64,000 nucleotides of DNA from Bacteroidia bacterium. GTDB taxonomy: Bacteria > Bacteroidota > Bacteroidia > Chitinophagales > Saprospiraceae. The DNA lies in NCBI GenBank assembly GCA_030426765.1, contig JAUHXV010000001.1, positions 124,001 to 188,000 of the forward strand, in the 5' to 3' direction. The notes under the pieces were generated by a model that was not told where the DNA came from, made no database searches, and saw only the letters and a program-made list of their open reading frames with translations. Within the stretch, counting starts at the first letter, position 1. Each line of letters starts with the position of its first letter. This document shows, piece by piece, positions 12,098-46,485 of the stretch. The position numbers and the translations under genes were made by a program.

Positions 12098-12197
12098 TTC
12101 AATAAATATTAAATTTTTTTTGCTCCTGTTGCCAATCTCAATTTAATCGGGAGCACTCCTTATGTTTCCAATAAATATCTATTTGGCAATTTTTTAC

Positions 12198-12220
12198 AAA
12201 TTATAGTTTATCATAATATG
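12198..12220 (+). promoter_or_regulatory. Shared 23-bp upstream element, copy 1
   Basis: AT-rich element identical at 22 of 23 positions to 25366-25388. The core is TTTATCATAATATG (12207-12220). It lies about 310 bp upstream of the 12528 ATG; a regulator-binding site is inferred. Confidence 0.5.
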
Positions 12221-12239
12221 ATGAACTATCCGAAAAACT

Positions 12240-13001: not shown

Positions 13002-13056
13002 ACGAACTTGTTTGAAACGACTTATGATAAATTACTTTATTAAATCAACCAATCTC

Positions 13057-19477: not shown

Positions 19478-20836
19478 ATGAATACCAGATCCCGTAAATT
19501 TTCCGCGTGGTTGAATACACCTATGGATCCGAGGATGCTCGGGTTGTACCGTATCGGATACGGACTGTTTATGGTGTACACGATGCTAAATTACTTCAGG
19601 ATTGAACTGGTGAAAAAGATGTTCGTGGAGCCTCAACTGAACTTTAGTTATGACTTTTTATACTGGATAAAACCATTGCCTGAACCTGCGATGAATGTAA
19701 TTCTGGGCATATTGGTGATCCTGGCAATATGTATCAGTCTTGGATTGTATTTTAAATGGGCATGTAGATTTTTTGCTGTTGGATATGCCTACATATTCCT
19801 GATAGACAAGAGTATTTATAATAATCACATCTACCTGTTTATCCTGCTCGCCATCCTGTTGAGTCTTACGGATGCCGATAATACGCTCTCCTTGAAAAGG
19901 ATAAAAGATAAGCATGCCCTGATTCCGAGATGGCAGACGCTGATCCTACAACTCCAGATTGTGATTGTATACTTCTATGGGGGAATAGCAAAGCTGACAA
20001 AGGATTGGCTCATGGACTGTCAACCGGTACGAACAGTGGTTGATCAGTTTCCGAATGAAGGTTTGTGGTCAATATTATTCAAAAATGATATCGTCATGTA
20101 CGTTATCAACTACGGTGGTATCCTGATAGACCTGGGTGCCCCCTTTTTTCTGTGGTATAAGCCTGTTAGACGTTGGGCGATAATTGCATTCATTGCATTT
20201 AACGCGTTAAACACCAGGATTTTTTCTGATATTGGTATATTCCCTTACGTCATGTTGGTCAGTTTGTTCCTTTTTTATGAAGTCAGTGAACTTCCCTGGT
20301 TACATAGACTATTGAGTCGTCTGGCACCCGATACATCAAGGCCAAAGACAGCAAAAATGAAATTAAAGATCAAACTGAGCGGAATGAAGATGTATGGGTT
20401 ATATGCCTATTTCATTTTCCAGCTTTTGTTCCCATTTAGAGGACACTTTTTACCCAATGATCTGGATTATACCACAATTGGAAATCGGTTTTCATGGCGC
20501 ATGAAGGTGGATACCAGAAAAGTAATCCGGGTAGAATACTCGATCGCTTCACCGGATTTTGCTTCTCATGTCCCTGTGGAGATTCAAACGTTTATCAATG
20601 ATATGCAGATCAAAAATCTCACTATGGATCCACGGTCAGTCCTGGACTTTGGTAAATTTATACACGAAGAGGCGATAAAGTACGATACCAGAAATCCTGC
20701 AGTATACGCCAACATAGAAGTAGCGTATAATGGTCGCTCACCTCAGTTATTTGTAGATCCGAAAGTAGATTTATCAAACCAAACGTATAGTCCTTTCAAA
20801 GCATTGGAATGGGTAGTTCCGATTGGTTCGAAGTAG
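19478..20836 (+). CDS. Vitamin-K-dependent gamma-carboxylase-like (HTTM) membrane protein
   Basis: 452 aa with several membrane helices in the first 300 residues, then a soluble C-terminal part. It matches the HTTM / vitamin-K gamma-glutamyl carboxylase family: MDPRMLGLYRIGYGL, YNNHIYLFILLAILLSLTD (His117) and VYFYGGIAKLTKDW (Lys172). By family alignment from memory, these residues fall at the positions of human GGCX His160 and the base Lys218, so the catalytic centre looks intact. The human enzyme gamma-carboxylates Glu residues; known bacterial homologues are mostly of unknown activity. It lies between the 2095-aa giant and two lipoprotein genes on the other strand. Whether any neighbour is a substrate is unknown. 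Confidence 0.8.
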   Translation: MNTRSRKFSAWLNTPMDPRMLGLYRIGYGLFMVYTMLNYFRIELVKKMFVEPQLNFSYDFLYWIKPLPEPAMNVILGILVILAICISLGLYFKWACRFFAVGYAYIFLIDKSIYNNHIYLFILLAILLSLTDADNTLSLKRIKDKHALIPRWQTLILQLQIVIVYFYGGIAKLTKDWLMDCQPVRTVVDQFPNEGLWSILFKNDIVMYVINYGGILIDLGAPFFLWYKPVRRWAIIAFIAFNALNTRIFSDIGIFPYVMLVSLFLFYEVSELPWLHRLLSRLAPDTSRPKTAKMKLKIKLSGMKMYGLYAYFIFQLLFPFRGHFLPNDLDYTTIGNRFSWRMKVDTRKVIRVEYSIASPDFASHVPVEIQTFINDMQIKNLTMDPRSVLDFGKFIHEEAIKYDTRNPAVYANIEVAYNGRSPQLFVDPKVDLSNQTYSPFKALEWVVPIGSK

Positions 20837-25011: not shown

Positions 25012-25301
25012 TCATAATTATATCAGTAGGCTTTGGTCTCGGCGCATCTGAGATTCCGGTCAGAATTGACATTCACAGGGAATTCACCTTCTCCAGGTGA
25101 AGCAAACTCCTCAATCCTGAATTTTCCAACTCATTAAACATGGTCTAGACATACCCTTTGGATGGCTAAACGGAGAAGGTGCGCACGGTTACGGATTTGC
25201 TATTTAGCTAAATATATGTGTAAATAGAAGATATACAGCAATATAAATATAATGATATAATATTATATGTTAATATTTTATCTGATAAATCCGCATAATT
25301 A

Positions 25302-25332
25302 TTTGGCGGTTCAAACATATTAGATATTTTTG
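25302..25332 (+). promoter_or_regulatory. Bacteroidota -33/-7 promoter of the 25619 giant
   Basis: TTTG (25302-25305), 19-bp spacer, TATTTTTG (25325-25332): a full match to TTTG-N17-23-TAnnTTTG. The -7 box sits within the spacer of the ACATATTA-N10-TAATGTGT inverted repeat. Confidence 0.6.
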
Positions 25333-25340
25333 TAATGTGT
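25315..25340 (+). promoter_or_regulatory. Palindromic operator-like site, copy 1
   Basis: ACATATTA, ten bases, TAATGTGT: one mismatch from a perfect inverted repeat. The site before the 33001 gene has the same half-sites, the same N10 spacing and the -7 box in the same register. Confidence 0.5.
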
Positions 25341-25365
25341 AATACTTTAATATGTGATATGTTTT

Positions 25366-25388
25366 AAATTATATTTTATCATAATATG
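25366..25388 (+). promoter_or_regulatory. Shared 23-bp upstream element, copy 2
   Basis: Identical at 22 of 23 positions to 12198-12220; core TTTATCATAATATG at 25375-25388. It lies just downstream of the predicted transcription start of the 25619 gene. Confidence 0.5.
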
Positions 25389-25451
25389 TAAGCATTTCAC
25401 ACGTCTGCTCCCAAAAGCAGTTACTAAGAATAACCGTCATCATCATCGATT

Positions 25452-25622
25452 ATGAATAAACCTGTATGCTCTGGTTTACATGCATATGAATGCCCTCCGG
25501 TTCCCGGAAGGCAGGATCAGTTTCTGGCCTGCCCAGAATACCAACCCTCAATCCTGATGTCAACGGAAGATCACTTTCAGTTAAGCCCTTGGTTCATACA
25601 CCCTTTAACCCGGTTCCGATGA
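25452..25622 (+). CDS. Possible 56-aa upstream ORF overlapping the giant gene's start (ATGA)
   Basis: Open frame from ATG 25452 to TGA 25620-25622; the stop overlaps the ATG of the giant (25619) as ATGA, a classic arrangement for translational coupling. The start sits in the same context as the ATG of the 33001 paralogue (CGATTATGAA preceded by the shared TGCT/AGCA leader), and the first 27 bases agree at 19 positions (MNKPVCSGL against MKKLVLSGF). The product shows no signal peptide or known domain and is rich in Pro and Cys. It could be a regulatory leader peptide, or a relic of a former N terminus now out of frame with the giant. Existence as a protein is uncertain. Confidence 0.4.
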   Translation: MNKPVCSGLHAYECPPVPGRQDQFLACPEYQPSILMSTEDHFQLSPWFIHPLTRFR

Positions 25623-28600
25623 AAAGCATTTTTACCCGCCCGGTAAGTCCTTTCGATTTCTGTATAGCCCGGCGCAGTGTGATGTGCCTGCTTCTGGTAT
25701 CCATTGGATGTTTGCCTAACGCATATTCCTCAGACTGGGAGCTACAACATGCTGAAGGCCAACTCTCAACCTGGAACTTTTACGGAGCTACTAATGAAAC
25801 TTTTCAGGATGTAAAACTTTCCACAATGTCCGCAGCTATTAGCTGCAAGCCCGTAGTCAATGTATCGCTCAATCAGGAAGGATATGCAGTAGTCACCGGT
25901 TATATGATGGTCAATGGTCCCGAGTATCTACCTGATCAGTACACCGTTGATATCATGGGCCCTTTATCGGATACGGTGACCTGCGACAATATCGGGGAGG
26001 ATCTGATGGCCGTGGTCACAGAAATACCTACTGGAAACAGTTGTATGTCCATGATCAACGTTGAGGACAAACTTCCTCCGCAGTTTTCCTGCACCTCAGA
26101 TACCTTGCCTTGCAACACAGATATCCCGTCGATTGATTTTGAAAGTTATCTCGAATCCGTAACGGACAATTGCGATCCGGAACCAGATTACTGGTATTCA
26201 TTTGTCGTTCAGGTTTTGGGGTGTAATCCGGACAGATTTACCCACCAAATATTAGTGACCTGGACTGCCACAGATCTGTATGGAAATACAGGTACATGTG
26301 TGGATACCCTATACCTACAGAGACCGCTATTAGACGATATTGACTTTCCTCAGGATGTCACGATCGCCTGTGATGAAATGATCGATACCGACCCTTCCAA
26401 TACTGGTGTCCCGACCATTGAAGGAGAACCTATTGGGTTTTCATGTCAGCTGACCACTTTCCGAGGGGATGTGGTTATTCCCATGTGTATACCCACTTAT
26501 AAAATACGCCGAACGTGGACAGTTATGGACTGGTGCACGGGATCGTCAACATCAATGGTTCAGGAGATTCTTATAGTGGACAATAATAATCCAGTCATCA
26601 CATGCCCTCCGGACATCACACTGGATACAGATTTAGGTGATTGTACCACAGATTACACGCTGCCTCTTCCGGTTATGCTTTCAGATGCATGTGCCGACAG
26701 TAGTGATATAGAAGTAGTAATTACGATTGATGCCAATCCGCCCCTGCCGGGTTTTTTCTCTCCGGGGCAAATCGTCAATTTGGGTGCGGGCACTACCGTG
26801 ATCACGATGCGCGCAACTGATCCCTGCGGCAATTCGGCAACCTGCCAGTATACGATTACCATTGAAGATGAATCACCACCCGGAATAGTGTGTCCGGACG
26901 ATATTACCCTAGACTGCGATAGCAGCACAGATCCGGCAATGACGGGGTTGGCCACCGCCACAGATGATTGTGACAGCAATCCGATCGTGACCTATACGGA
27001 TGTTACCATCACGAATGAAGGATGTATTTCCGGTTATAAAGTCACACGAACCTGGACGGCTGAAGATGCGAGTGGCAACAAATCAAGTTGCATGCAGATG
27101 ATTCTGCTCACCGATCAATCCCCGCCTACGATTATCTGTCCGGAAGATATAACGATTGCTTGTGACGAAAGTACTGATCCTGTTGACACAGGATTTGCGT
27201 CAGCAACTGATGGCTGTGATGCCATGCCGGTGATTACCTTTTCGGATGTGACGGTGTCCGGACCATGCCCACACAGGTTTACTATCCAAAGAACCTGGAC
27301 CGCTATGGATGATTGCGGACATATGGGTTCCTGTGTGCAAGTCATTTCAATTGAGGACACAACCCCTCCCTTGATTTCATGCCCGTTCGATATGACTATT
27401 GAGTGTTCCTCACCGATCCCAACAGATATGGCTTCGGCTACGGATAACTGCAGCAGTTCATTGAATATTACCTACTCGGATATAGTGTGTGCCAATCCTG
27501 TGCTGGGATTTGCCGGGCCTTATGATATCGGTTTGTGGACCACGATCATACCGGCAGAAGGTGGCAGTGTCACAGTTATGGGAGACGATGAAGTCATGTT
27601 AACCAGTCCTGATGTAACGATCGGCTGCGATGATGCTTCCGTCCAGTTTAGTATTGACATTACCAGCAGCGGACATATTGTATTTGACTGGTACTTTGAA
27701 ACGCAGGATGTGGATGGTCCCTTCTATGATCCGTTCGGATATAATCTAAATGGAACATTTTTTCAGTTGACCGATGATGCCGGAGATGATGTACAACATG
27801 GAAGGACGTCCGTCGAGGTAACTGCAGGAGACGTTTTTGCTTTCGATCAAAGAGCCACAGATTGTATTGAAGGACCGGGAGCAACTTCTGTTGTAAATTT
27901 TCTGGCCTGTACGGAGGATATGGATGATCCGTGTAATGTACTGATCATCCGAACCCATACAGCCACAGATGAATGTGCAAATGAAGCTGCTTGTATTCAG
28001 ACCATACTACTGGTGGATACGACACCACCCGATATATCCTGTCCGGATGCAGTGACCATAGAATGTACAGAAAGCACACAACCTGTGAATACAGGAATGG
28101 CTTCCGTGACGGATAATTGCGATGCTTCACCAACATTGTCCTTTAGTGATGTTATCCTTGATATACCGTTATGTGCGCAGGCCTACGTGATCAATCGTAC
28201 GTGGATTACAGAAGATGATTGTGGGAATACAAATTTTTGTGTTCAGGTCATCACTGTTGAGGATTCAACTCCTCCGGACATGTCCTGTCCACCTGATGTT
28301 ACAATTGAGTGCACGGATTCAACACTTCCCGTGAGTACAGGTAATGCTTCCGCAACGGATTTGTGCGGGGATGTACCGGTGATTGAATACACTGATGTCA
28401 CATTAGCTGGTGGATGCCCACAGGAATACAGTATCATTCGAACATGGCTCGCAGCGGATGCGTGTGGTAATACATCGACCTGTGATCAACTGATAATTGT
28501 GGAGGACAGCACACCTCCTCTCATATCCTGTCCTTCTGATATCACACTGGAATGTGATGAAAGTACGTCACCGGACAATACAGGGATAGCTTCTGCCACT

Positions 28601-31528
28601 GATAATTGCGACGTATCTCCTGTCTTCACGTTTAGTGATGCGGTGACGGATGGTGTATGCCCTCAGGCCTTTACCATCACTCGCACCTGGATAGCAGCAG
28701 ATGCCTGTGGCAATAGCAATACATGTCAGCAAATTATTTCCATCGAAGACAATTTACCTCCGGATGTAACCTGTCCGATGGATGTGACGATTTCTTGTGC
28801 TGAAAGCAGTGACCCGACAGATTTAGGGATGGCCACGGCAACTGATCTATGTGATCCAAGTCCTGATGTCACTTTTTCAGATTTAATTGTACCCGGAAAT
28901 TGTAATGGAGAAGCGACGGTATTTCGGACATGGACTGCTATGGATGCTTGTGGTAATAGTAGCACATGCGTACAACAGATTTCAATCACAGATGATACGC
29001 CTCCTGTATTTACCTCCTGTCCTGCGGATGTCACGATAGAATGTGGTGAAAGTACGTTGCCTGATGACACAGGAATCGCTACTGCAACAGACCTCTGCGA
29101 TGTGTCAGTTGAGATCACGTATTTGGATGTAATCCTTGCCGGCATGTGTCCGCAGGAATTTACGATCAATAGAGTCTGGATAGCCACGGATGATTGTGGA
29201 AATAGTACTTCCTGCCAGCAAGTAATTTCAGTAGAGGATAATACCCCACCTAATATTCTGTGCCCTGTGGATATCACAATCGCTTGCACGGAAAGTACCG
29301 AACCCGGAAATACGGGTTTGGCTTCAGCAACTGATGCCTGTGATGCAAATCCTTTAGTCACCTACAATGATGTTGTGGTGGGTGGTGGATGTCCGGGAGA
29401 AGGTGGAATCATGCGGACCTGGACAGCAACGGATGCCTGTGGCAATACGAGTACCTGTTTGCAAATCATATCTGTTGATGACGATACACCTCCAGTGATC
29501 ACAGACTGTCCGCCTGATCTGACCATTGAATGTGACGATGATACGCTTCCTGTATCAACAGGATTTGCTTCTGCTACGGATGATTGCGATTCAGCACCTG
29601 TCATTACCTACAGCGATTCTATTGCTGATGGTGACTGTCCGCAGGACTATACCATCACAAGGATATGGACGGCCATGGATGCGTGTGGCAACAGTAGTAC
29701 ATGTGCACAGATGATTTCGGTGGAGGATAATACACTTCCCGTGATTACGTTTTGTCCCCCTGATGTGACAATCAGTTGTGAAGAGAGCACCGCCCCAGGC
29801 AATACAGGTACCGCTTCTGCAACAGACAACTGTTCAGCAGATGTAACTATCACTTTTGATGATTCAATTTCAGATGGCGCATGTCCGCAGGAGATTACCC
29901 TTACGAGAGTTTGGATAGCTACTGACGATTGCGGAAATTTCTCGACATGTGTTCAGATGATTACGACTGAAGATACGTCTCCTCCTTTGATAACATGTCC
30001 GGCTCACATCACTGTAGCGTGTGATGAAAGTATACTTCCAGATAATACAGGAATGGCAGGCGCTACTGATAATTGTGATCCTGTTCCAGTTGTAACGTAT
30101 AATGATGTCACTTTAGGATCACAGTTTTGCGCAGAGCAATCCACTATCCTTCGAACCTGGACGATTACGGATGCATGTGGAAACGGAACAAATTGTATTC
30201 AGATCATTACGATCATAGATATTACGCCACCTCAGTTTACTCCATGTCCGGCGGACATTACAATAGAATGTGGTGAAGATCCATCACCTGAAAATATAGG
30301 TTTTGCAAGTGCATCCGACAATTGTGATAGTGCTCCTGTGATTACCTACAGTGACATCACTACAGAAGGGACATGTGGATCAAATTATTCGGTCACCCGC
30401 ACATGGACAGCTACGGATGCTTGCGGGAATGCAGCCACCTGTGTACAGATGATTTTTGTTGAGGACAACACGCCTCCGGTTTGCTCTGCACAGGATATTA
30501 CAATTACTGAAATTCTTGATCCGGAAACGGGTGTCATATATATAACAGCAGAGATGATTGACGATGGATCGTTTGATGCCTGTGGCGGACCGGTGACCCT
30601 TGAGGTCATTCCGGATTCACTTTTGTGTGAAGATGAGGGACCCAATGAAGTTACCCTGGTTGTGACCGACGAGTGTGGAAACAGTTCTACCTGTACTGCC
30701 ATTGTCACGATTGACTGTATTGATCCGTGCGTGAATATTATGGGATGGGTATACCTGGCTGGTGCAGCAACGGATCCCACAGGGCTACCGGATACATATA
30801 CTGTTCCGATGCGTACTGATTTAAATGACCTGCATGTTTTGCCGGGACAATCGTATTTCGATCCGTTTTTTGGTGTAAAGTATACACCACCCGGACAACC
30901 TTATTCCGGTGCACCATGGTTTTATCCCGGCATGGAGGGTGACATGTTCGATTCGGGTGGAGATCCGATGATGGGGGATGCCGGATATCCTCCAACGGTT
31001 GTGGACTGGGTACTTGTCAGCCTGAGAGAAGATTCTGCAGGTACAGACGGCCCCGTTTGTATGGCAGCAGCTTTGGTACACAACGACGGAGCCATTGAGT
31101 TTGTAGAAGAATTTGACTGTTGTAATCTGGATCTGGAAGCATCGTATTTTCTGGTGGTTGAACATCGCAACCATCTGATCGTCATGTCCGATGATTCGTT
31201 GCCGATCGATTTGAACAACAGTACGATCACCTACGATTTTAGAATTCAGCAAAGTTACCTGGATGATCCCTTCATGTTTGGGGCTTCAGCCCAGTTAGAG
31301 ATTCTTCCCGGCATATATGCGATGCTGGCAGCAAATGGAGAGCAGTCTTCATCCGATAACGCGGATACGGATATCAATATCAGTGATCGGGTAGCATGGC
31401 AGGATGATAACAGTAGTGTAGGAGAATACCGGGTGGGGGATTACAACCTCAATGGAGATACAAACTTTAATGACCGTATTACCTGGGAGTTTTTCAATGA
31501 CAACTTCACTAGCGTACCGAGAGATTGA
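25619..31528 (+). CDS. Giant secreted HYR-repeat protein lacking a T9SS sorting domain (1969 aa)
   Basis: Start ATG 25619 gives a plausible signal peptide (FTRPVSPFDFCIARRSV, then MCLLLVSIGCLPNAYSS); a longer frame from 25490 adds a non-signal N terminus. An N-terminal module (VNVSLNQEGYAVVTG... GNSCMSMINVEDKLPP) and a YKIRRTWTVMDWC module precede an array of about 13 HYR domains (about residues 420-1620), each with CP..(I/V)TI.C, NC, RTWTA.DACGN.S.C and DNTPP. The fourth HYR carries an inserted beta domain (about 626-771). The C-terminal module (1703-1969) ends in dockerin-like loops (NADTDINISDRVAWQ; GDYNLNGDTNFNDRITWEF) and stops at SVPRD. No YQNxPNPF-type T9SS domain is present, unlike the paralogues. 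The next gene, 80 bp away, encodes a cohesin-like protein that has one. Confidence 0.87.
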   Translation: MKSIFTRPVSPFDFCIARRSVMCLLLVSIGCLPNAYSSDWELQHAEGQLSTWNFYGATNETFQDVKLSTMSAAISCKPVVNVSLNQEGYAVVTGYMMVNGPEYLPDQYTVDIMGPLSDTVTCDNIGEDLMAVVTEIPTGNSCMSMINVEDKLPPQFSCTSDTLPCNTDIPSIDFESYLESVTDNCDPEPDYWYSFVVQVLGCNPDRFTHQILVTWTATDLYGNTGTCVDTLYLQRPLLDDIDFPQDVTIACDEMIDTDPSNTGVPTIEGEPIGFSCQLTTFRGDVVIPMCIPTYKIRRTWTVMDWCTGSSTSMVQEILIVDNNNPVITCPPDITLDTDLGDCTTDYTLPLPVMLSDACADSSDIEVVITIDANPPLPGFFSPGQIVNLGAGTTVITMRATDPCGNSATCQYTITIEDESPPGIVCPDDITLDCDSSTDPAMTGLATATDDCDSNPIVTYTDVTITNEGCISGYKVTRTWTAEDASGNKSSCMQMILLTDQSPPTIICPEDITIACDESTDPVDTGFASATDGCDAMPVITFSDVTVSGPCPHRFTIQRTWTAMDDCGHMGSCVQVISIEDTTPPLISCPFDMTIECSSPIPTDMASATDNCSSSLNITYSDIVCANPVLGFAGPYDIGLWTTIIPAEGGSVTVMGDDEVMLTSPDVTIGCDDASVQFSIDITSSGHIVFDWYFETQDVDGPFYDPFGYNLNGTFFQLTDDAGDDVQHGRTSVEVTAGDVFAFDQRATDCIEGPGATSVVNFLACTEDMDDPCNVLIIRTHTATDECANEAACIQTILLVDTTPPDISCPDAVTIECTESTQPVNTGMASVTDNCDASPTLSFSDVILDIPLCAQAYVINRTWITEDDCGNTNFCVQVITVEDSTPPDMSCPPDVTIECTDSTLPVSTGNASATDLCGDVPVIEYTDVTLAGGCPQEYSIIRTWLAADACGNTSTCDQLIIVEDSTPPLISCPSDITLECDESTSPDNTGIASATDNCDVSPVFTFSDAVTDGVCPQAFTITRTWIAADACGNSNTCQQIISIEDNLPPDVTCPMDVTISCAESSDPTDLGMATATDLCDPSPDVTFSDLIVPGNCNGEATVFRTWTAMDACGNSSTCVQQISITDDTPPVFTSCPADVTIECGESTLPDDTGIATATDLCDVSVEITYLDVILAGMCPQEFTINRVWIATDDCGNSTSCQQVISVEDNTPPNILCPVDITIACTESTEPGNTGLASATDACDANPLVTYNDVVVGGGCPGEGGIMRTWTATDACGNTSTCLQIISVDDDTPPVITDCPPDLTIECDDDTLPVSTGFASATDDCDSAPVITYSDSIADGDCPQDYTITRIWTAMDACGNSSTCAQMISVEDNTLPVITFCPPDVTISCEESTAPGNTGTASATDNCSADVTITFDDSISDGACPQEITLTRVWIATDDCGNFSTCVQMITTEDTSPPLITCPAHITVACDESILPDNTGMAGATDNCDPVPVVTYNDVTLGSQFCAEQSTILRTWTITDACGNGTNCIQIITIIDITPPQFTPCPADITIECGEDPSPENIGFASASDNCDSAPVITYSDITTEGTCGSNYSVTRTWTATDACGNAATCVQMIFVEDNTPPVCSAQDITITEILDPETGVIYITAEMIDDGSFDACGGPVTLEVIPDSLLCEDEGPNEVTLVVTDECGNSSTCTAIVTIDCIDPCVNIMGWVYLAGAATDPTGLPDTYTVPMRTDLNDLHVLPGQSYFDPFFGVKYTPPGQPYSGAPWFYPGMEGDMFDSGGDPMMGDAGYPPTVVDWVLVSLREDSAGTDGPVCMAAALVHNDGAIEFVEEFDCCNLDLEASYFLVVEHRNHLIVMSDDSLPIDLNNSTITYDFRIQQSYLDDPFMFGASAQLEILPGIYAMLAANGEQSSSDNADTDINISDRVAWQDDNSSVGEYRVGDYNLNGDTNFNDRITWEFFNDNFTSVPRD
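27494..27930 (+). other. Inserted domain within HYR 4 of the 1969-aa protein
   Basis: A stretch of about 145 residues beginning NPVLGFAGPYDIGLW, with VFDWYFETQDVDGP and FGYNLNGTFFQLTDD, interrupts an HYR domain between its TYSDIVC strand and its RTHTATDECAN strand. The same insertion occurs at the same place in the 2946-aa protein (39024-39468). Probably a beta-sandwich ligand-binding or structural domain; family not named. Confidence 0.65.
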
Positions 31529-31608
31529 TCATTGATCTTCGTTGATCTAACAGGATATGCCAAATAAGTGGTTGTGATAAAAGAGAATTGCATTTAAATT
31601 TTTCGAAC

Positions 31609-32616
31609 ATGAAACAAGTTGTTTGGTTCACACGCATGGTTCACGTCATGATACTTTTATGTGGAATAGCATGCACCTCTTTAGCAGGGCAGGAGAGACC
31701 CCTGGTTGAAATCCGGTTTACTAATCCGGTGTATGATGTCAACTCGCGAATGTACTCAGTCGATGCAGAGATGATGTCGCTGAATGCAGATGAGGAGTTT
31801 TTCGGGATGAACCTGCGTTTTTTTTATGACGCAACGTTCCTGCAGTTTAAAGCGATTGATCAGGTACATCAGGGGTATGGGTTTTTAGGCACGCCGCCTA
31901 AGGCCGTGGTCGGAGGAGCGACCAGCGGATCTGTTCTTTTTGATTTTGACAACAAAGCAGGTTATATCAATAGTACAGTGATTCTGACCAATGCGCTTTA
32001 TCCACTTGCCTTGCCTAAGAAGGAGTGGGTGAAGGCTTTCAGGGTCAAGTTTTTTGTTCCGCTTTCAGTGCTCGCCAGCCCAGCTTTCTGTCCCAGTATT
32101 ATCTGGGATAAGGAATTCGATCCAGCCATGGGAGGTTTTCTGCAGGGCAGTGAAGGTGTGTTGATCGCGGTCGTGGAGAAGGAAGACGAGTCAGGTGCTG
32201 AGGCGCTTGTCGCAGACACATATGGACATCCGTTCAATTGGGAATATTATGATATGCAAGGCCTTCCTCATGGGCAAATTGTATCCGAAACATGTATTCC
32301 GATCAACAATACGATCACGGAGGAACCGGATAAGTCGCCTGCTGGTGGGTATGATATTGCACAGAATACGCCCAACCCATTTTCCGGGGAAACAACGATA
32401 ACGTTTACGCTCCCTAAGATGGAGTATGCAGCGCTCATCCTGTATGATGCAGAGGGGACGATCCGGGAGACCATTGAAGGGCAGTTTAATGCCGGTGAGA
32501 ATAAGGTCCTCCTCAGAATGAAAAGCTGGATGCTGGATTCCGGAGTGATCTATTACAGGTTGCAAACAGATACATACCGATCCGGGGCGATCTCAATGGT
32601 CTGTATTAGGGCCTGA
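31609..32616 (+). CDS. Cohesin-like secreted protein with T9SS sorting domain (335 aa)
   Basis: Start ATG 31609 (MKQVVWFTRMVHVMILLCGIA, cleavage near LAGQ); a TTG seven codons upstream is unlikely. Residues about 24-165 form a beta-rich domain with a cohesin-like pattern: VEIRFTNPVYDVNSRMYSVD, FFGMNLRFFYDATFLQFKAI, SGSVLFDFDNKAGYINST, WVKAFRVKFFV. The T9SS type-A sorting domain is about 245-335 (YDIAQNTPNPFSGETTITFTL, then YYRLQTDTYRS and a final CIRA). It is 80 bp downstream of, and in line with, the 1969-aa giant that lacks such a domain. I infer that it may anchor the giant at the surface; the cohesin assignment rests on pattern, not on a search. Confidence 0.72.
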   Translation: MKQVVWFTRMVHVMILLCGIACTSLAGQERPLVEIRFTNPVYDVNSRMYSVDAEMMSLNADEEFFGMNLRFFYDATFLQFKAIDQVHQGYGFLGTPPKAVVGGATSGSVLFDFDNKAGYINSTVILTNALYPLALPKKEWVKAFRVKFFVPLSVLASPAFCPSIIWDKEFDPAMGGFLQGSEGVLIAVVEKEDESGAEALVADTYGHPFNWEYYDMQGLPHGQIVSETCIPINNTITEEPDKSPAGGYDIAQNTPNPFSGETTITFTLPKMEYAALILYDAEGTIRETIEGQFNAGENKVLLRMKSWMLDSGVIYYRLQTDTYRSGAISMVCIRA

Positions 32617-33000
32617 AAAGATTGTCTAGCTCAAAACACCATGAGAAATCATAGTGAATATGATATGCGAACGCCTGATTTTATAAAATGATAAGGCTGA
32701 ATGAGCTATCAGGAATGGATCCGTAAAGCCGGATAAAGGAGCCTTAGCTAATTTTTATACATAAATCTTATATTATCAATATCAAACATATTATAATAAA
32801 ATATTATATGAATAATAATTATTCAAAAAAAAATGTGTAAAGAAGGTGCAGTTAATACATATTACATATATTTGTAATATGTATTAAACTAATAAAGCGC
32901 ATAAATTGAATTAGAAAAATATTTAATATGTAATCCGGTCCCATCCCAAGAATTGCTCCCAAAGCAGTAACGAAGATTTAATTAACCCAAACCGTCGATT
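32617..33000 (+). other. 384-bp intergenic region before the 1338-aa gene
   Basis: No gene seen. It contains the palindrome ATTTTATAAAAT (32678-32689) nested between GCCT and AGGC, an AT-rich stretch, the 14-bp perfect inverted repeat at 32852-32887, and a leader with the TGCT/AGCA hairpin also found before 25452. Confidence 0.6.
32852..32887 (+). promoter_or_regulatory. Perfect 14-bp inverted repeat around a -7 box, copy 2
   Basis: Arms 32852-32865 and 32874-32887 are exact reverse complements separated by ATATATTT. The -7 box TATATTTG (32867-32874) lies in the centre. The inner half-sites ACATATTA and TAATATGT with N10 spacing correspond to 25315-25340. A repressor or activator dimer site is inferred. 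Confidence 0.6.
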
Positions 33001-36000
33001 ATGAAAAAACTAGTTCTATCTGGTTTTAAAGAGACCCTCTGCGCATTATCCAGCGTTCTGCTTACCCTGTTGTTGGTCTGCAGCAACCTGGTGCTTGTTC
33101 AGGGACAATGCGAAATGTCCTGCCCTCCCATGGATCCCCCCACGCCGATAAGTCTTTCGTCCGATTGTGTGGATGAACTGACCTATCAGCTAATAGGTGT
33201 AACGCCTCCGCCTCCACCTTGCCCGCCGGGTCCGATGGAAGTAGAGATCTTCGACAACGGCGTTCCATTAGGCAATATGATCACTGCCGACATGATTGGA
33301 AATACCTATATGGTGATCGTCACGCATTTGCCTTCAGGGAATACATGTATGGCCACGATCATAGTTCAGGACAAACAGGCTCCTATAGTCAATTGCCCTG
33401 AGGATGTGACACTGGAATGTACGGCCGATCTGGATGACTACAATCCGATTGCTGCCACAGATATTTCTGATTGTTCCTCAACTACCATATATATAGATGA
33501 CGCGCTGCAGTTTGCCGGCATGTGTCAGAACTCCATCATCAGCCAGTATGAGCGTACGTATATTATTGTCGACGCGTATAACAATGCGGACACGTGCTAT
33601 CAGACGATCTCTTTACAAAAAGAAGATTTGGCAGATGTTGATTTTCCCGATGATCTGGTCGGACCGGATGCTTTAAATTGTTTTCCTCCTCCGGACACCA
33701 CACCAGCCAATACGGGATATCCTTCAGTAGATGGAAACCCAATTGTAAATGGAGCTTTTTGTAACATCAGCGCTGTATACACAGACCTCGTAGGTCCTCT
33801 CTGTTCAGGTGGATATAAGATATTACGTACCTGGACGGTTTACGACTGGTGTGATAATAGTGCTTCCAGTTCAGCCGTTCAGACGATCGAAGTACTGGAC
33901 ATAACCCCTCCGGAAGTCACAGCACCGGATGACATCACCGTTTCCACCGGTGGGTCATCGTGTAGTGCCGATGTAACCATTCCTCCGGCAGTTGTTTTTG
34001 AGGATTGCTCAAATTACACGGTTGTTACGGACATAGAAGGACCCTTTAATCCCATTTTTGATAATGGTGGCACAGCAGAAGACTTGCCTGCTGGTGTTCA
34101 CCGCGTGATTTTTATTGCAACCAATGATTGCCAGTTGGAAGGCCGGGATACAATGTATATAACCGTTAAAGATCTGACGCCACCGACTCCGGTTTGCAAT
34201 CTTCACCTCGCTATCCCGGTTAATCACCTCGGTACGACAGTGGTACCCGCATCGATATTTGATGGCGGAAGTACGGACAATTGTAGCGATGTATATGTGA
34301 AGGCAAAACGCATGGATACACCGCAGGGATATACCTGTGCCAATCCGGGAAATCCGAACAACCTGTTTGATGACATCGTGCAGTTCTGCTGCGAAGACAT
34401 CCCAAACAATAATATCACCATCATTCTCAGAATTTATGATCTGCCACCGGTAGCCGGTCCGGTTAGTGATGATTATCTCAACGGACATTACAATGAGTGT
34501 ATGGTCCTGGTACAAGTGCAGGATAAACTTCCTCCGACAATTGTGTGCCCGAGCGACCTGACGATTAGTTGTCAGTTTCCATTCACAGAAGAAAACCTGG
34601 ATGTATTTGGTGAAGTGGCTTTATCAGAAGCAGCCAGAGAAGATATATGTATTGATGATCCGGGTGTTCCGGGAGACCCGGGACTACAGTGTATCGGAAG
34701 AGATGGACTGGCTACAGACAATTGTAATGTCGAGATCGAAGAGCTCGATCCGGTCATTACGATGAATGATTGCAACACAGGAACCATCGTAAGAACATTT
34801 GTCGCAACAGATGATGGAGGCCTGCAGGCTTCCTGTCAGCAAGTGATCACAATCGTCAATTTCAATCTTTTTACGGAAGGAGATATCACCTGGCCGGAAG
34901 ATTACACAGCCAACGATATATGTGATGTGTCACTGCTGGATCCTGACGAACTCGATCCTCCGTATAACATGCCTGTACTGGCGGATAAACCATGCAGTAT
35001 GGTTGCCGCGACCAGTGATGATGACGTGTATGATTTTTCAAATAATGATCAGGCATGCTTCAAGATACTGCGTCACTGGACAGTGATGGATTGGTGTCAG
35101 CTCGATGGTCAGGGAGCAGGTATCTGGACACATACGCAGGTGATCAAAGTGATGAATACGGAAGGCCCAACGATTGAACCGATTGCGGACCTTAATGAAT
35201 GCTCCCTTGAACCGGATTGCGGAGGCAAGGTGATTGATTTTAGTGCCACTGCAGGTGATGCCTGCTCAGGTCCGGGTTCATTGGAATGGAAATATTTCAT
35301 CGATGAAAACAATGACAATTCATTTGAATATACATCTCCTGTGATAGTCGGAGGAACTCTTGAGTTTTCTTACGATATGCCACTGGGCGATCACCGGATT
35401 CTCTATTCTGTGTGGGATTTATGTGGCAATGTCACGTATGAGGAGCAGCTTGTTTCTGTAACGAGTTGCGTCGGTCCTGAAGCCGTGTGTCTTTACCTGA
35501 CTACAAGTCTGATGCCAGTAGATCTTGATGGTGAACCCGGGGCAGATTGGGGTATGGTGACGATCACAGCGAATATGTTTGACGGAGGAAGTTATCACCC
35601 ATGTGGAAACGATATTTTCTTCTCTTTCAGCAGCACCTTGACGGATACCACACGTGTGTTTGAGTGCGTACCGCTTGGTGAGCAGGACATTGAGTTGTGG
35701 GTGATAGATGAAAATGGAATTGCCAGCGTTTGTGCAACGACGATTGATATTCAGGACAACCAGCATTTCTGCCCACCTCAACCCGGCAACACCGGTACGA
35801 TTTCCGGAAACATAACGGTTCCGGATCAGGGTGCGCTATCTGATGCGATGGTGTATCTGGAAGGTAGCAACCTGGCGGGTATCCCATCCGCAACCAATGG
35901 TCACTTTGTTTTCCCCGCCATGCCTTTGGGTGGAGAATATGTGGTAAGACCGGAAAGAGAAGGTGATGCCAAAAATGGTGTCTCCACATTGGACCTCATT

Positions 36001-37017
36001 AAGATCCAAAAGCACTTACTAGGCCTTGAGACATTTACAACACCCTATCAGTACATCGCGGCAGATATCAACAACAGTAAAAGTATTTCCGCGATTGACA
36101 TTATCCAGTTGAGAAAACTGATCCTTGGATTTTACAACGAATTTCCAAGCAATCAATCCTGGCGGTTTATCGACAAAGCACACATTTTCCCTGATCCGGC
36201 TGACCCATGGAAAACAGCCTGGGCGGAAACGTATTCCATTATTCCGTTCGCTGCAAGCATGAACGACGTAGACTTTGACGCTGTCAAGATCGGTGACCTG
36301 AATCACTCCGCAAATCTTAGCTCAATGGACAACGGTATGATTTCCGTTAGAGGAAGTAAGCGTTGTGAGGTGGAATACACAGTGAGTCAAACACCGGAAG
36401 AAAATATATACCGTGTAGATGTTTTCGTAAATGAAGCTCGACGGTATCAGGGTTTACAATTTTCTTTTGACTGGGACAAAACCGGCTATGAATTAGTCGA
36501 TTGGGCACCTGGTGCTAAGATCTCTGCTGATGATTTCAGGATGCCGATAAGTAAAGAGATGAATGCTTCTGTCTCAACCTATACCGTGGATGGATGGCAG
36601 GATGAGAACGTACAGCTTATCACCCTTTGGGTCAAAAAAATATCTCAATCATTTTATCCATTTGAGCTATTCCTGAATCCCGATCCAACATATCCGGTTG
36701 CCATCACGAGTGAAGGAGAGGAAGAAGTCAACCTTTCTATCAAGGCCAGATCCAAATCTGTGGTCATGATTGAAAACAGACCTAACCCGTTTGCCAGTAT
36801 GACAACACTCTACGTGGAGAGCAGCTATGACGAGCCTGCCACGATCCGAGTATTTGATATCAATGGAAAAATGGTGTATACCCGTGACGTGCAGTTGACA
36901 ACCGGCGCCAATGAATTTGTCGTGCGCAAATCAGAGTTGGGATCGGCCGGTATCATGATGTATGAAATAGAATCTAAACTTCAGTATAGTACTAACAGAA
37001 TGATAATAGTAGAATGA
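33001..37017 (+). CDS. Secreted HYR/dockerin/cohesin-like protein with T9SS sorting domain (1338 aa)
   Basis: Signal peptide within residues 1-36 (ALSSVLLTLLLVCSNLVLVQG), cleavage before QCEMSCPP. The N-terminal module with GNTCMATIIVQDKQAP parallels that of the other giants, followed by Cys-rich HYR-type domains and RTWTVYDWC / RHWTVMDWC modules. The dockerin-like block is about 985-1050 (KNGVSTLDLIKIQKHLLG; ADINNSKSISAIDIIQLRK), then SWRFI and KIGDLNHS, a cohesin-like domain about 1120-1240, and the T9SS domain 1254-1338 (ENRPNPFASMTTLYV to RMIIVE). The order is the same as in the 1498- and 2095-aa proteins, but without the CUB, P or PPC additions. Transcribed from the palindrome promoter and closed by a strong terminator. 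Confidence 0.87.
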   Translation: MKKLVLSGFKETLCALSSVLLTLLLVCSNLVLVQGQCEMSCPPMDPPTPISLSSDCVDELTYQLIGVTPPPPPCPPGPMEVEIFDNGVPLGNMITADMIGNTYMVIVTHLPSGNTCMATIIVQDKQAPIVNCPEDVTLECTADLDDYNPIAATDISDCSSTTIYIDDALQFAGMCQNSIISQYERTYIIVDAYNNADTCYQTISLQKEDLADVDFPDDLVGPDALNCFPPPDTTPANTGYPSVDGNPIVNGAFCNISAVYTDLVGPLCSGGYKILRTWTVYDWCDNSASSSAVQTIEVLDITPPEVTAPDDITVSTGGSSCSADVTIPPAVVFEDCSNYTVVTDIEGPFNPIFDNGGTAEDLPAGVHRVIFIATNDCQLEGRDTMYITVKDLTPPTPVCNLHLAIPVNHLGTTVVPASIFDGGSTDNCSDVYVKAKRMDTPQGYTCANPGNPNNLFDDIVQFCCEDIPNNNITIILRIYDLPPVAGPVSDDYLNGHYNECMVLVQVQDKLPPTIVCPSDLTISCQFPFTEENLDVFGEVALSEAAREDICIDDPGVPGDPGLQCIGRDGLATDNCNVEIEELDPVITMNDCNTGTIVRTFVATDDGGLQASCQQVITIVNFNLFTEGDITWPEDYTANDICDVSLLDPDELDPPYNMPVLADKPCSMVAATSDDDVYDFSNNDQACFKILRHWTVMDWCQLDGQGAGIWTHTQVIKVMNTEGPTIEPIADLNECSLEPDCGGKVIDFSATAGDACSGPGSLEWKYFIDENNDNSFEYTSPVIVGGTLEFSYDMPLGDHRILYSVWDLCGNVTYEEQLVSVTSCVGPEAVCLYLTTSLMPVDLDGEPGADWGMVTITANMFDGGSYHPCGNDIFFSFSSTLTDTTRVFECVPLGEQDIELWVIDENGIASVCATTIDIQDNQHFCPPQPGNTGTISGNITVPDQGALSDAMVYLEGSNLAGIPSATNGHFVFPAMPLGGEYVVRPEREGDAKNGVSTLDLIKIQKHLLGLETFTTPYQYIAADINNSKSISAIDIIQLRKLILGFYNEFPSNQSWRFIDKAHIFPDPADPWKTAWAETYSIIPFAASMNDVDFDAVKIGDLNHSANLSSMDNGMISVRGSKRCEVEYTVSQTPEENIYRVDVFVNEARRYQGLQFSFDWDKTGYELVDWAPGAKISADDFRMPISKEMNASVSTYTVDGWQDENVQLITLWVKKISQSFYPFELFLNPDPTYPVAITSEGEEEVNLSIKARSKSVVMIENRPNPFASMTTLYVESSYDEPATIRVFDINGKMVYTRDVQLTTGANEFVVRKSELGSAGIMMYEIESKLQYSTNRMIIVE

Positions 37018-37052: not shown

Positions 37053-37154
37053 ATGAGAACCAAACTTTTTACCCCTGAAGCCAGATGGGAGTGTAGGCAT
37101 CTTCTGTCGGGGAAAATTATTCGCCTTGCAATAAACCATTTCAATCTTGTAAAG

Positions 37155-40100
37155 ATGGAAGCACTATCTATGTCCGTAATTAATCGATCAGAGAACACCC
37201 TCACCCGAGGCCTGATGGTCTGTATGTTAATGATAAGCGGGGTCTTTACCCTGATAGCAGGTCCACGGGACTGGATGCAGTACCAGACCTCAGGTCAACT
37301 CACTGCCTGGAACTTTTACAGCCAGGAAGCTGAGGGAACAAGTGAGACAATGGTACTGTCTCCACCGGTAGCCTTGAGTTGTATTCCGCAGGTGAATGTA
37401 TCGCTTAACCAACAAGGATTTGCAGTCATCACTCCTGCCATGCTCGTTAACGCACCGGACTATCCCCTGAATCAGTATGTGGTAGATATCATGGGCCCAC
37501 TGTCCAACACAGTGTATTGTGATAATATAGGACAGGAACTCATGGCAGTTGTCACTGAGCTTCCCACAGGGAATAGTTGTATGTCCGTATTAAATGTGGA
37601 GGATAAGTTGCCTCCCGTCTTTGACTGCGAAGCAGATGTGCTGCCCTGCAATACAGATATTCCTTCCATTGATTTTGAAGCCTACCTCGAACCGGTGGAT
37701 GATAATTGTGACGATGATCTTACGCTTTGGTATTCTTTCGTTTCACAGAATCTGCCTTGTAATCCCGACAACTATACGAAACAAGTATTGGTGACCTGGA
37801 CAGCAACCGATGATTATGGCAATAGCTCCACATGTGTGGATACCATATTTTTATTGAAACCCAGTTTAGGCCAGATAGATTTTCCACCGGACGTATCGAT
37901 CAGTTGCATTGATGCAGATACGGATCCGTCCAACACAGGGGAACCTACTTATCAGGGAGAACCCATTGACCACGCGTGTCAGTATGTTTCCTTCCATACG
38001 GATGTGATCATTCCTATGTGTAACCCGGCCTATAAAATCAGACGTACCTGGACGGTGATGGATTGGTGTACGGGATCAACGGCTACCGATGTACAGGAGA
38101 TTCTTGTGGTGGATGATAACAAACCCAATATTACATGTCCTCCGAATGTTACCTTAAGTACCGACTTTCAGGTTTGTACCACGAAATACACTATCCCGAT
38201 GCCAGTGGTGTCAGACCCCTGTGCGGATGCAGACGACATCGTGGTGACCGCAACGTTTGCCGCAAACCCGCCAATACCGGGCATATACTCACCCGGCCAA
38301 ATGGTAAACTTAAACCTTGGCACAACGCTGATTACTATGCGTGCAACAGACCCATGTGGCAACACAAGGATCTGTCAGTATAATGTAACGGTCAGAGATG
38401 ATTTGCCTCCGGTCATTGCTTGCCCGGGTGATGTCACGATTCAGTGTGCCGGGATTACGGACCCGGGAGCTACCGGGTTTCCGATCGTCATCGATGTTTG
38501 TGATGATGATCCTGTAGTGACCTATGAAGATGCCACAGTTTCCACAGATGGTTGTGCATTTGGTTATATCATTACCCGCACATGGATGGCAGAAGATGAA
38601 AGTGGTAATGTGGCGACCTGCATGCAAATGATTGAATTGAATGATGATATGCCTCCGGAAATATCTTGTCCGCAGGATGTGACCATATCCTGTGAGGATA
38701 GCACCCTGCCTGCGAATACAGGAATGGCTACAGCCAGCGACGAATGCGATCAAAATCCGGAAGTCTCATACCAGGATGTTACGCTGGAAGGTACCTGTCC
38801 GCATGAATATATTATCAACAGGACATGGACGGCAACAGATGATTGTGGTAATGCAGGCACATGTCTGCAGGTGATTTATGTCGATGATGATGTACCGCCA
38901 TTGATCACATGTCCTCCGGATATGACCATTGAGTGTACACTACCCACACCGACAGATCTTGCTACGGCAACAGATAATTGCAGTATTGATGTGACATTGA
39001 CATATTCTGATATCATGTGCATCAATCCTGTGGTGGGCTTTAATGGCCCCTACGACATCGGGCTGTGGAATACAATTATTCCAGCCGAAGGTGGAAGTGT
39101 GGATGTCATGGGAGACAATGAAGTGATGCTCACCAGTCCGGATGGTTTGCCGGAATGTGCCGGTTCATCCGTACAGTTTAGTATCACCATCACGAGTACC
39201 GGCCAGATCGTCTTTGACTGGCACTATGAAACGCAGGATGTTGATGGTCCGAGTTTTGATCCGTTTGGCTACAACCTGAATGGAACATTTTATCAGTTGT
39301 CTGATAATTTTGGAAACGATATCCAGAGCGGCACGGCAACAGTTGCGGTGACTGACGGAGATGTGTTTGCCCTGGAGCAACAATCGACAGATTGTGTACT
39401 AGGCGAAGGTGCCACTGTGGTCGTTGAATTCTTTGCTTGTATAGAACAGATGGATGAGGAGTGTACCATGCTGATCATCCGTACCCACACGGCAACGGAT
39501 GAATGTGATAACGTAGCGAGTTGCGTGCAAACTTTGTTCTTTATCGATACGCTGGCTCCTGAAATTGTATGTCCGGTTAACCTGACCATTGAGTGTACAG
39601 AGAGTACATTACCGGCAAATACCGGAAGTGCTAATGCTACGGACGATTGTGACGATACCCCGGATATCTCTTACTCAGATGTGACCATCGCTTCGCCTGA
39701 TTGTGCGCAGGAATATACCATTACCCGAACCTGGACAGCAGCCGATGCTTGCGGCAATAGCAGTACCTGTGTACAGACGATAGTGGTCGATGACAGCACA
39801 GCTCCGATTATTTCCTGCCCGGCCAATACGACAATAGAATGTACCGAAAGCACTGACCCGGGAAATACAGGTTTTGCTTCCGCTACAGACAACTGTACCC
39901 TTTCACCTGATATTGATTTTGATGATGCCACAACCCCAGGTGCTTGTCCGCAGGAGTACACGATCACCAGAACCTGGTCCGCGACAGATGCGTGTGGAAA
40001 TGTCAGTACGTGTGTGCAGACCATCACAGTAGATGATAGTACGGCACCGGTGATCACCTGTCCGGCTAATGTGACGATTGAATGCGATGAGAGTTCAGCC

Positions 40101-43100
40101 CCTGGCAATACCGGTTCTGCCACTGCCGTGGATAACTGTGATACAACACCTACTGTTGATTTTAATGATACCACATCACCCGGTGCTTGTCCGCAGGAAT
40201 ACACAATAACCAGAACCTGGACGGCGACAGATGATTGTGGAAATAGTTCGACGTGTGAGCAAATCATTTTCGTGGAAGATACCACGCCACCGACCATAAC
40301 ATTCTGTGCCGCTAATATCACCATCGAATGTGATGAAAGTACATTGCCGGCCAATACAGGTACCACCACTGCTAGCGATAATTGTGATCCATCACCTGCA
40401 GTAGAGTTTAGCGATGTGACTGCATCCGGTGCATGCCCACAAGGATATATGATTACCCGGACCTGGACAGCGACGGATGCATGCGGAAATGCAACGAACT
40501 GCATCCAGATCATTACCGTTGAAGATAGTACCCCTCCGGTGATCACGTGCCCAGCCAATGTGACCATCGAATGTGATGAGGATTCAGATCCCGGATCAAC
40601 AGGCACTGCGACTGCGGTTGACAATTGCGATGACAATCCAGTGATCACGTTTAGCGATGCGACTGTTCCCGGTGCATGTCCCGATGAGTCTACCATCAGC
40701 AGAACCTGGATAGCCACAGATGCGTGTGGCAATAGTTCGTCCTGTGTGCAGACGATCGTCGTGGACGATAGTACACCGCCGGTGATCACATGTCCGGCCA
40801 ATACAACCATTGAATGTACAGACAGTACAGATCCGGCGAATACCGGTTTTGCTACTGCATCTGATAATTGTGCAACAGCTCCGATAGTAGACTATAGTGA
40901 TGTCACTACAGCCGGTGCTTGTCCACAGGCATATATCATCACACGTACCTGGATAGCCACCGACAATTGTGGAAACACAAGCACATGTAATCAGTTGATC
41001 ACAGTGGAAGACAGTACACCGCCTGTGATCACATGTCCAGCAAATGTCACAATAGAATGTGATGAGAGTTCAGATCCTGCCAATACAGGTTTAGCTACCG
41101 CAATAGACAGTTGTGATGACGCTCCGCTTGTGACGTTTAGTGATGCGGTGACCCCTGGCGGATGTCCGCAGGAGTTTACCATATCCCGCACCTGGACAGC
41201 GACCGATGCCTGTGGGAATAGCTCGACATGCGAACAAACCATTTTCGTAGAGGACAGCACGCCACCTACCATTACGTTCTGTGCAGCTAACATCACCATC
41301 GAATGTGATGAAAGTACGTTGCCAGACAATACAGGTACTACCACGGCTACCGATAATTGTGATCCGGCACCAGACGTAGCGTTTAGTGATGCTACCGTGT
41401 CCGGACAGTGTCCGCAAGGATATGAAATCACGCGTACCTGGACAGCGACTGATGCGTGTGGAAATGCAACGAATTGCATCCAGATTATTACGGTTGAGGA
41501 TAGTACACCACCGGTGATTACCTGTCCAGCTTCTGTGACCATTGAATGTGATGAGAGTTCTGATCCTGGTAACACAGGCACAGCCACTGCCGTCGACAAT
41601 TGTGACGACGCGCCACTCATTACGTTTAACGATGCTTCGGAGCCCGGCGCTTGCCCTAATGAGTCTGTCATCAGCAGAACCTGGACAGCGACCGATGCGT
41701 GTGGCAATAGCAGCACATGCATTCAGACCATCACGGTGGATGACAGCACACCACCTGTGATCACTTGTCCGGCGAATACAACCATCGAATGTACAGACAG
41801 TGCAGATCCGGTAAATACCGGTTTTGCTTCTGCAACAGATAATTGTACCACCGCGCCGGAAGTAGATTTCAATGATGTGACGATTGCAGGTGCATGTCCG
41901 CAGGAATATACAATCGAAAGAACATGGACAGCAACAGACAACTGTGGAAATACCAGTACATGTCTCCAAACGATCACAGTGGATGATAGCACACCTCCGG
42001 TGATCACCTGTCCGGGAGATGTAACGATATCCTGTACCGAGAGTACTGATCCGGATGATACCGGATTTGCGACAGCTTCTGATAGCTGTGATGATAATCC
42101 TGAAATCACCTGGGTGGACACGCCTGTTGACGGGGATTGTGCCGGTGAGTCTTCGATTGAAAGAACCTGGACGGCCACTGATGCGTGCGGTAATGAAAGT
42201 ACATGCGTACAAAATATTTCGATCATTGATGACGCAGCTCCTGTAATTTCATGCCCCGCGGATATTACCATTTCCTGCTCAGAGAGTTCGCTGCCGGATA
42301 ATACAGGAGAGGCCACTGCTACGGATAACTGCGATGACACACCTGAAATCACTTTTTCAGATGTGACCATCGGAGGAGACTGTCCGGTCCTGCTTACTAT
42401 CACCCGAACCTGGACGGCAACGGATGATTGTGGTCAAAGCACTACCTGCGTGCAGATCATTATTGTGACGGATGAAGAGACGCCATTGATTACGTGTCCG
42501 GCAGATATCACCATCGAATGTGATGAAAGTACAGAACCCGACAATACAGGTTTTGCCACAGCTACGGATGAATGCAGTCCTCCGGTGCTTACGTTCGAAG
42601 ATGCATTTGAAGGCAGCGGATGTGCGCAGGAGTCATTTATCTTCAGAACATGGACCGCCACGGATGGTTGTGGCCATACCAGCACTTGTCTGCAGGTGAT
42701 CTCAATTGTAGATACGACACCACCTGCGATTACCTGTCCACCGGATGTAACGGTACAGTGTGATGACAGCACTTCACCGGATGATACCGGTGTGGCTACA
42801 GCTGTTGACAATTGTGATGACGAACCCATTATTACATTCTCAGATGTGACAACCGGTATAGGATGTCCGGATGGATATGAGATTACAAGAACCTGGACCG
42901 CCACTGATCGATGTGGCAATGTCAGCACTTGTGAACAAATCATTACCATTGATGACAATATCGCGCCGGTGGTATTCTGTCCGGGAGACGTTGCGATTGA
43001 ATGTCTGGATAGTACCTCACCGGATAATACAGGAGAAGCAACGGCATCAGATGTTTGTGATGATGCTCCGGATGTTGCGTTTTCTGATGTTGTGATTGGC

Positions 43101-46146: not shown

Positions 46147-46172
46147 ACAAATTGCATATATCTTTAATATAA
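46147..46172 (+). promoter_or_regulatory. Decayed third copy of the promoter palindrome
   Basis: ACAAATTG-CATATATCTT-TAATATAA aligns without gaps to the 33001 site (6/8, 8/10 and 6/8 matches). The -7 box in it is broken (TATATCTT). Confidence 0.3.
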
Positions 46173-46214
46173 AAAATACCATATTTACGGTATAACAACA
46201 TATTACGACTAATC

Positions 46215-46222
46215 TATATTTG
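46215..46222 (+). promoter_or_regulatory. Candidate -7 element for the 1498-aa gene
   Basis: Exact TAnnTTTG (TATATTTG), with a half-site ACATATTA at 46198-46205. It would give a 5' leader of about 255 nt. No good -33 TTTG seen. Confidence 0.4.
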
Positions 46223-46485
46223 TACTGGCATTAGAGGTTTTTATAATCTGTTAAGTGCTGAAACTGATAATAGTACAGGTTACGATTTTTTTATATCTGA
46301 GTATAAAGGAATAATACCGGAGCCTGGCCAAAGAACCTTCCTGAACGATAATAAGCCTGGGTGGCAGGAGGATGTGCTGCATCCGACCGTCACAATGATC
46401 ACACATGCTATTTCTAAGAGCTGCGGCCTTTAGCGGTACTCTTTCAATATAGGCTAATTATTTTTTAAACTAAAACTAAGATCTC

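Follow-up and report, generated by a model that had tools for sequence, protein, structure and literature searches.

Two giant genes in the stretch analysed here, a 64,000-nucleotide window of a Saprospiraceae genome, are preceded by the same palindrome, which raises the question of what kind of factor would read it and whether that factor serves surface-protein genes alone. By direct reading, the palindrome ACATATTA-N10-TAATRTGT is present twice in the window, as ACATATTAGATATTTTTGTAATGTGT at 25315-25340 and as ACATATTACATATATTTGTAATATGT at 32857-32882. A first-pass annotation had described both copies, each with a TAnnTTTG (-7) box starting at the third base of the N10 spacer, and had seen the repeat before the 33001 gene extend to perfect 14-bp arms; the letters agree with it on each of these points (Table 1). 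It had also listed a decayed copy before a third giant. That copy is present but poor, and a better one lies beside it. Its broader proposal, a single dimeric regulator that covers the -7 box of several surface-protein genes, is weighed below.

Each of the first two giant promoters carries three sites, at -70/71, 0 and +49 relative to the start of the main palindrome; the four flanking ones (25245, 25364, 32786, 32906) had been overlooked. These two promoters align with each other over approximately 300 bp, leader included, and, judged by this likeness, may be duplicates. Being alignable, they are partly copies and not independent instances, so the case rests on other genomes. The ATG at 25452 aligns with the ATG of the 33001 gene, yet the 2012-aa ORF starting at 25490 is in a different frame; a frameshift, a misassembly or another start codon may account for the 5' end of the latter gene. 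The 2980-aa giant may share a transcript, and hence a promoter, with the 33001 gene. A further match at 19707-19732, richer in G+C and located within an HTTM/VKGC gene, is probably due to chance.

Table 1. Palindromes, -7 boxes and associated genes in the window (positions count from the first letter of the window)
Feature	Position	Strand	Remarks
Palindrome, 2 mismatches	12196..12221	.	307 bp 5' of a 157-aa ORF, itself before a 2139-aa giant (12925-19344)
Upstream palindrome, first giant promoter	25245..25270	.	3 mismatches; 70 bp 5' of main site
Main palindrome before 2012-aa giant	25315..25340	.	0 mismatches to ACATATTA-N10-TAATRTGT
TAnnTTTG (-7) box in palindrome spacer	25325..25332	+	Register +10; direct reading
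Third palindrome, first giant promoter	25364..25389	.	3 mismatches; main site +49 bp exactly
2012-aa ORF, HYR_4C domains, target gene	25490..31528	+	
Upstream palindrome, second giant promoter	32786..32811	.	2 mismatches; 71 bp 5' of main site
Perfect 14-bp inverted repeat	32852..32887	.	Arms 32852-32865 and 32874-32887; encloses main palindrome 32857-32882
TAnnTTTG (-7) box in palindrome spacer	32867..32874	+	Register +10; direct reading
Third palindrome, second giant promoter	32906..32931	.	4 mismatches; main site +49 bp exactly
1338-aa ORF, target gene	33001..37017	+	Por_Secre_tail match weak, below cut-off
2980-aa HYR_4C/dockerin ORF	37053..45995	+	Starts 35 bp 3' of the 33001 gene
Decayed palindrome	46147..46172	.	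4 mismatches
Better palindrome near third giant	46198..46223	.	3 mismatches; 51 bp 3' of decayed copy
Third giant, 1498-aa ORF, HYR and dockerin domains	46486..50982	+	

The motif is far more abundant than its composition predicts. At ≤3 mismatches the window holds 16 strand-matches where 1.37 would be expected, a count reached in 0 of 100 shuffles, although shuffling the whole window is lenient because its intergenic stretches have only 24-33% G+C. As a stricter genome-wide control, we used the same pattern read backwards, which has equal composition. In the genome of the window (G000), the forward pattern gave 26 sites against 6 at ≤2 mismatches and 9 against 0 at ≤1 mismatch. Across 61 Saprospiraceae genomes, 313 matches at ≤1 mismatch compare with 24 for the reversed pattern, which is thus 13 times rarer. 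The matches are unevenly spread: 22 of the 61 genomes have 5-30 each (together 286 versus 12 reversed), and 20 have none on either strand at this threshold. Matches per genome fall as G+C rises (Spearman -0.45 over 30 loci, with G+C per genome measured on one locus each), and the motif-rich genomes, low in G+C on average, belong to a family whose members are related. G+C is nevertheless insufficient as the sole cause of the patchy distribution, because the low-G+C genomes G004, G016 and G037 have 0-1 matches and G024, at 53% G+C, has 7.

A further search went beyond the family collection. With the -7 box fixed in the pattern (22 defined positions), 28 contigs matched in a collection of 84,980 species, of which 23 are named Saprospiraceae, Saprospirales, Lewinellaceae or Portibacter, two 'Bacteroidetes bacterium' and three otherwise (KSB1, Lachnospiraceae, Thiomargarita); three of the 28 coincide with contigs of G038, G019 and G034 and are not independent of the family search. 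Portibacter lacus YM8-076, a cultured carrier of the motif, has one exact copy. A downstream ORF within the set limits was found on 23 of the contigs, and in 17 of these it resembles a gene already in the target set, the three coinciding contigs included. The best match is the 33001 giant of the window in two of the 17 and the 25490 giant in three.

The sites are concentrated at promoters. Among 220 sites (≤2 mismatches, 19 genomes), 102 lie between tandem genes, 101 between divergent and 2 between convergent ones, 9 are inside ORFs and 6 at the end of a stretch. In the background, 7919 of 8848 sampled positions fall in ORFs and about 10% are intergenic (470 tandem, 238 divergent, 70 convergent, 151 undetermined); these positions came from the window and the stretches around sites, with mechanical ORF calls. 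The stretches themselves were picked by pattern and not by genes, except those of a response regulator and the giants. The first-pass annotation had held that many matches unrelated to promoters would speak against it, and the scan found the opposite, with 203 of the 220 between tandem or divergent genes. Such placement, combined with conservation upstream of orthologs (clusters in up to 10 genomes, from different genera), is what is expected of an operator.

To relate the palindrome to the core promoter, we considered the 194 sites within 300 bp of the nearest gene, oriented to that gene. TAnnTTTG occurs at +5 to +45 from the site start on the sense strand of 60 sites and on the antisense strand of 16, an overlap or close adjacency as expected of the operator of a sigma-A core-promoter repressor. 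The positions of the box are discrete: +10 (7 sites), +21 (11), +26 to +28 (14) and +36 to +37 (9). Register +10 exceeds its column-shuffled mean (7 observed, 2.0 on average, p 0.001), and four of the seven sites in it precede HYR-type giants (the window twice, G038 and G034). The proposed coverage of the -7 box is therefore real in register +10, but this is one register of several. Judged from the putative boxes, the palindrome occupies the core promoter, though in more than one register, and the bound protein is probably a repressor there. Core-promoter occupancy in varying registers would favor occlusion of RNA polymerase over contact activation. Occlusion is unlikely to be universal, because the site in the promoter of an ArsR gene lies upstream of the putative -33 region and off the -7 box.

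That ArsR site is also an argument for the alternative we consider the strongest, although still improbable: an activator that replaces the -33 box at the core promoter. In many cases the palindrome stops at the -7 box and hence covers the -33 region, as such an activator would require. Against this, the register to the -7 box varies from +10 through +21 and +26-28 to +36-37, and at +10 the dyad center falls within the box itself. The -33 boxes of promoters that have the palindrome, compared with those of promoters that lack it, did not tell repression from activation. Strict sigma-54 -24/-12 pairs were found at only two of 91 sites, apparently before orthologous giants of L045 and L070. In the promoters of two orthologous HYR giants, an apparent -24/-12 pair overlaps the second palindrome (L045 ~2440-2480, L070 ~9290-9330).

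The architecture of the motif bears on the kind of protein involved. When exact half-site pairs CATATTA/TAATATG were collected from six motif-rich genomes with spacers of 0-30 allowed, 49 of 72 had spacer 10, and the remaining 23 were scattered over other spacers, each seen at most 3 times in a hand count. Similarly, exact CATATTA-N(0-30)-TAATRTG in the genome of the window gave 4 distinct sites with spacer 10 and single cases for other spacers. Two-fold symmetric half-sites at a fixed spacing are what the operator of a dimeric transcription factor is expected to show. The half-sites carry 1.1-2.0 bits per base at 8 positions, values inflated because the sites were selected by a consensus pattern, around an AT-rich center; flanks beyond ~4 bp share no sequence.

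Sites also tend to come in company. Around 180 strong sites we counted 30 second sites at ≤3 mismatches, compared with 5.8 in shuffled flanks. Among 63 unique pairs (second site at ≤4 mismatches), 11 from seven genomes are exactly 49 bp apart, compared with 2.6 per 10-bp bin in shuffled flanks, and 11 are separated by 69-74 bp; the 49-bp pairs are partly non-independent, since two are the alignable promoters of the window and two (G032, G042) precede orthologs. Both distances occur at the two giant promoters of the window (49 bp; 70/71 bp). Before orthologous giants of two congeneric species (C97 of G000 and C39 of G001), the strong site is retained together with another at a distance of 46/48 bp. 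The simplest explanation of the spacing would be cooperative binding of paired sites.

The AT-rich center and the preference of the arrays for 49 bp could also suit a nucleoid protein of architectural type, one that would mark AT-rich promoters but not act as a switch, and the very broad and functionally mixed targets fit it as well. We regard this as unlikely, and slightly more so than the activator, given half-sites that are specific even when the inflation by pattern selection is kept in mind, a spacer of 10 in most exact pairs, and the same orthologs kept as targets across genera.

The downstream genes show how far the putative regulon would reach. Among the recurrent targets, HYR-type giants form the largest cluster (21 genes, 10 genomes). 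The recurrent clusters, whose family names come from one representative each, further include a sigma-54-type response regulator (8 genomes, partly because it was searched for), Amidase_3 (6) with CcmB on its divergent side (4), rpoN (4), FtsK (4), a LysM glucosaminidase (5 genes, 4 genomes), an SLT transglycosylase (4), the ribonucleotide reductase small chain nrdB (4), alanine dehydrogenase (3), a SprB-repeat protein (3) and a C25-peptidase protein (3), which in our reading resembles the sortase PorU. Read from their N-termini, gyrB, ddl, xerD, purD, ruvA, murA and rmlB might be further targets. The recurrent targets thus include envelope, cell-division and housekeeping genes as well as peptidoglycan hydrolases.

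A regulator dedicated to giant surface-protein genes would explain why these form the largest cluster and why they follow four of the seven register-+10 sites. It is nonetheless very improbable: most of the 289 ORFs found downstream belong to other kinds of gene, among them recurrent orthologs (response regulator, Amidase_3, rpoN, FtsK, nrdB), and several giants in the genome of the window have no site. No site at ≤3 mismatches was seen there around the 2367-aa ORF, nor in the sequence retrieved 5' of the 5261-aa, 3219-aa, 968-aa and 1266-aa ORFs. The target list, with genes assigned by similarity, largely refutes a role restricted to surface genes. What stands of the original proposal is a fixed-spacer palindrome on the core promoter that recurs before giants and has the traits of an operator for a single dimeric protein; 'surface-gene regulator' is too narrow a name, because the greater part of the sites lie before genes of other kinds.

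That the leader RNA folds into a hairpin or attenuator, as an inverted repeat near start codons might suggest, is highly implausible, as sense-strand changes that keep G-U pairing (T/G, 32 sites) are hardly commoner than pair-breaking ones (C/A, 26 sites) and the sites, which lie on or before the -7 box, are for the most part located upstream of the start. A mobile repeat, or a chance product of AT-rich intergenic DNA in which an AT-rich motif might arise, is refuted by the rarity of the reversed pattern, the unshared flanks and the spacer specificity.

We conclude, with a probability of roughly three in four, that the 26-bp element serves as operator for a dimeric, sequence-specific DNA-binding protein and that this protein is a global regulator in some members of the Saprospiraceae. 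A protein dimer would bind each palindrome, palindromes 49 bp apart would be bound cooperatively, and, given the varying registers in which site and sigma-A core promoter overlap, binding would mostly block RNA polymerase. With three sites at each of the first two giant promoters of the window, these giants probably share their regulation with envelope, division and sigma-54 genes. A more specific proposal, to which we give somewhat less than even odds, is an undescribed, lineage-specific master regulator that assembles on palindromes exactly 49 bp apart and brings giant surface proteins under common control with cell wall, division, DNA-precursor, type IX export and sigma-54 genes.

The binding protein was not found among the families examined, namely the response regulator, Rrf2, Fis-type activators and an ArsR pair. 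The sigma-54-type response regulator was matched in 56 of 61 Saprospiraceae genomes and has receiver and AAA domains (loci L190-L219). As an NtrC-type binder it was rejected: none of the 30 proteins aligned has an HTH beyond the AAA lid, and the one scanned gave no HTH_8 hit. Its gene carries a site (≤3 mismatches) in 11 of 13 motif-rich and 5 of 17 motif-poor genomes; these 30 are the ones with a locus among the 56 that have the gene. By its predicted domains, the response regulator is a target that lacks a DNA-binding domain, presumably comparable to FlgR or CtcC. Rrf2/IscR is excluded by its distribution, with no Rrf2 match in 9 of 14 genomes with ≥10 palindrome matches (G019, G025, G032, G034, G038, G039, G042, G043 and G052, with 10-30 matches). 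Fis-type HTH activators are disfavored by an HTH_8 domain found in 60 of 61 genomes with a near-invariant recognition helix, the same in motif-free genomes; upstream of their own genes, the best match has 3 mismatches or worse (23 of 30 loci read).

A tandem ArsR-type gene pair is conserved across the family, and its recognition helices hardly vary (loci L340-L369). The pair is disfavored as binder, since all 61 genomes have a match at E ≤ 1e-5 and the recognition helix is the same in motif-free ones. Of 30 loci, 28 were usable, and in these the ArsR gene has a site of its own (≤3 mismatches) in 14 of 18 genomes rich in the motif and in 3 of 10 poor in it. As it often carries this weaker site, the gene may be one of the targets; that it encodes the regulator is less likely.

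A literature search, in which subscription papers were mostly beyond reach, found no paper on the palindrome and none on a Saprospiraceae transcriptional regulator. Saprospiraceae are known mostly from metagenomes. Our data point to an undescribed, broad-acting regulator behind the palindrome. A sharp, family-wide operator provides a bait for this regulator and a regulon to test, and any structure of the complex would have to account for the exact 49-bp pairing, which sets a physical constraint.

Among known systems, IscR/Rrf2 and ArsR operators (~26 bp) are similar in length and in their AT-rich center, but the distribution of Rrf2 and the constant ArsR helix described above set both apart. 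WalR and CtrA, global envelope and cell-cycle regulators, likewise have broad targets including wall hydrolases, division genes and other regulators; they bind short spaced repeats, whereas the element here is a 26-bp 8-N10-8 palindrome. The CIRCE operator of HrcA is likewise a long inverted repeat with a spacer of ~9-10 bp that overlaps and represses the core promoter, but its half-site differs and it serves a few heat-shock targets only, in contrast to the broad targets found here.

Flavobacterial alternative-sigma promoters (PMC9723704) and PorY-PorX-SigP (PMC4800418) are also reported to control type IX secretion, PorU and adhesin genes, through sigma-factor boxes, unlike the palindromic operator described here; the string 'palindrom' is absent from the main text of PMC9723704. 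From the same phylum, Bacteroidetes SOS repressors recognize CTAA-N5-TTAG and GGA-N5-TCC, and an altered spacer length abolishes binding (PMC8565304). These are likewise fixed-spacer palindromes in promoters, but with other half-sites, an N5 spacer and DNA-repair targets, unlike the Saprospiraceae palindrome.
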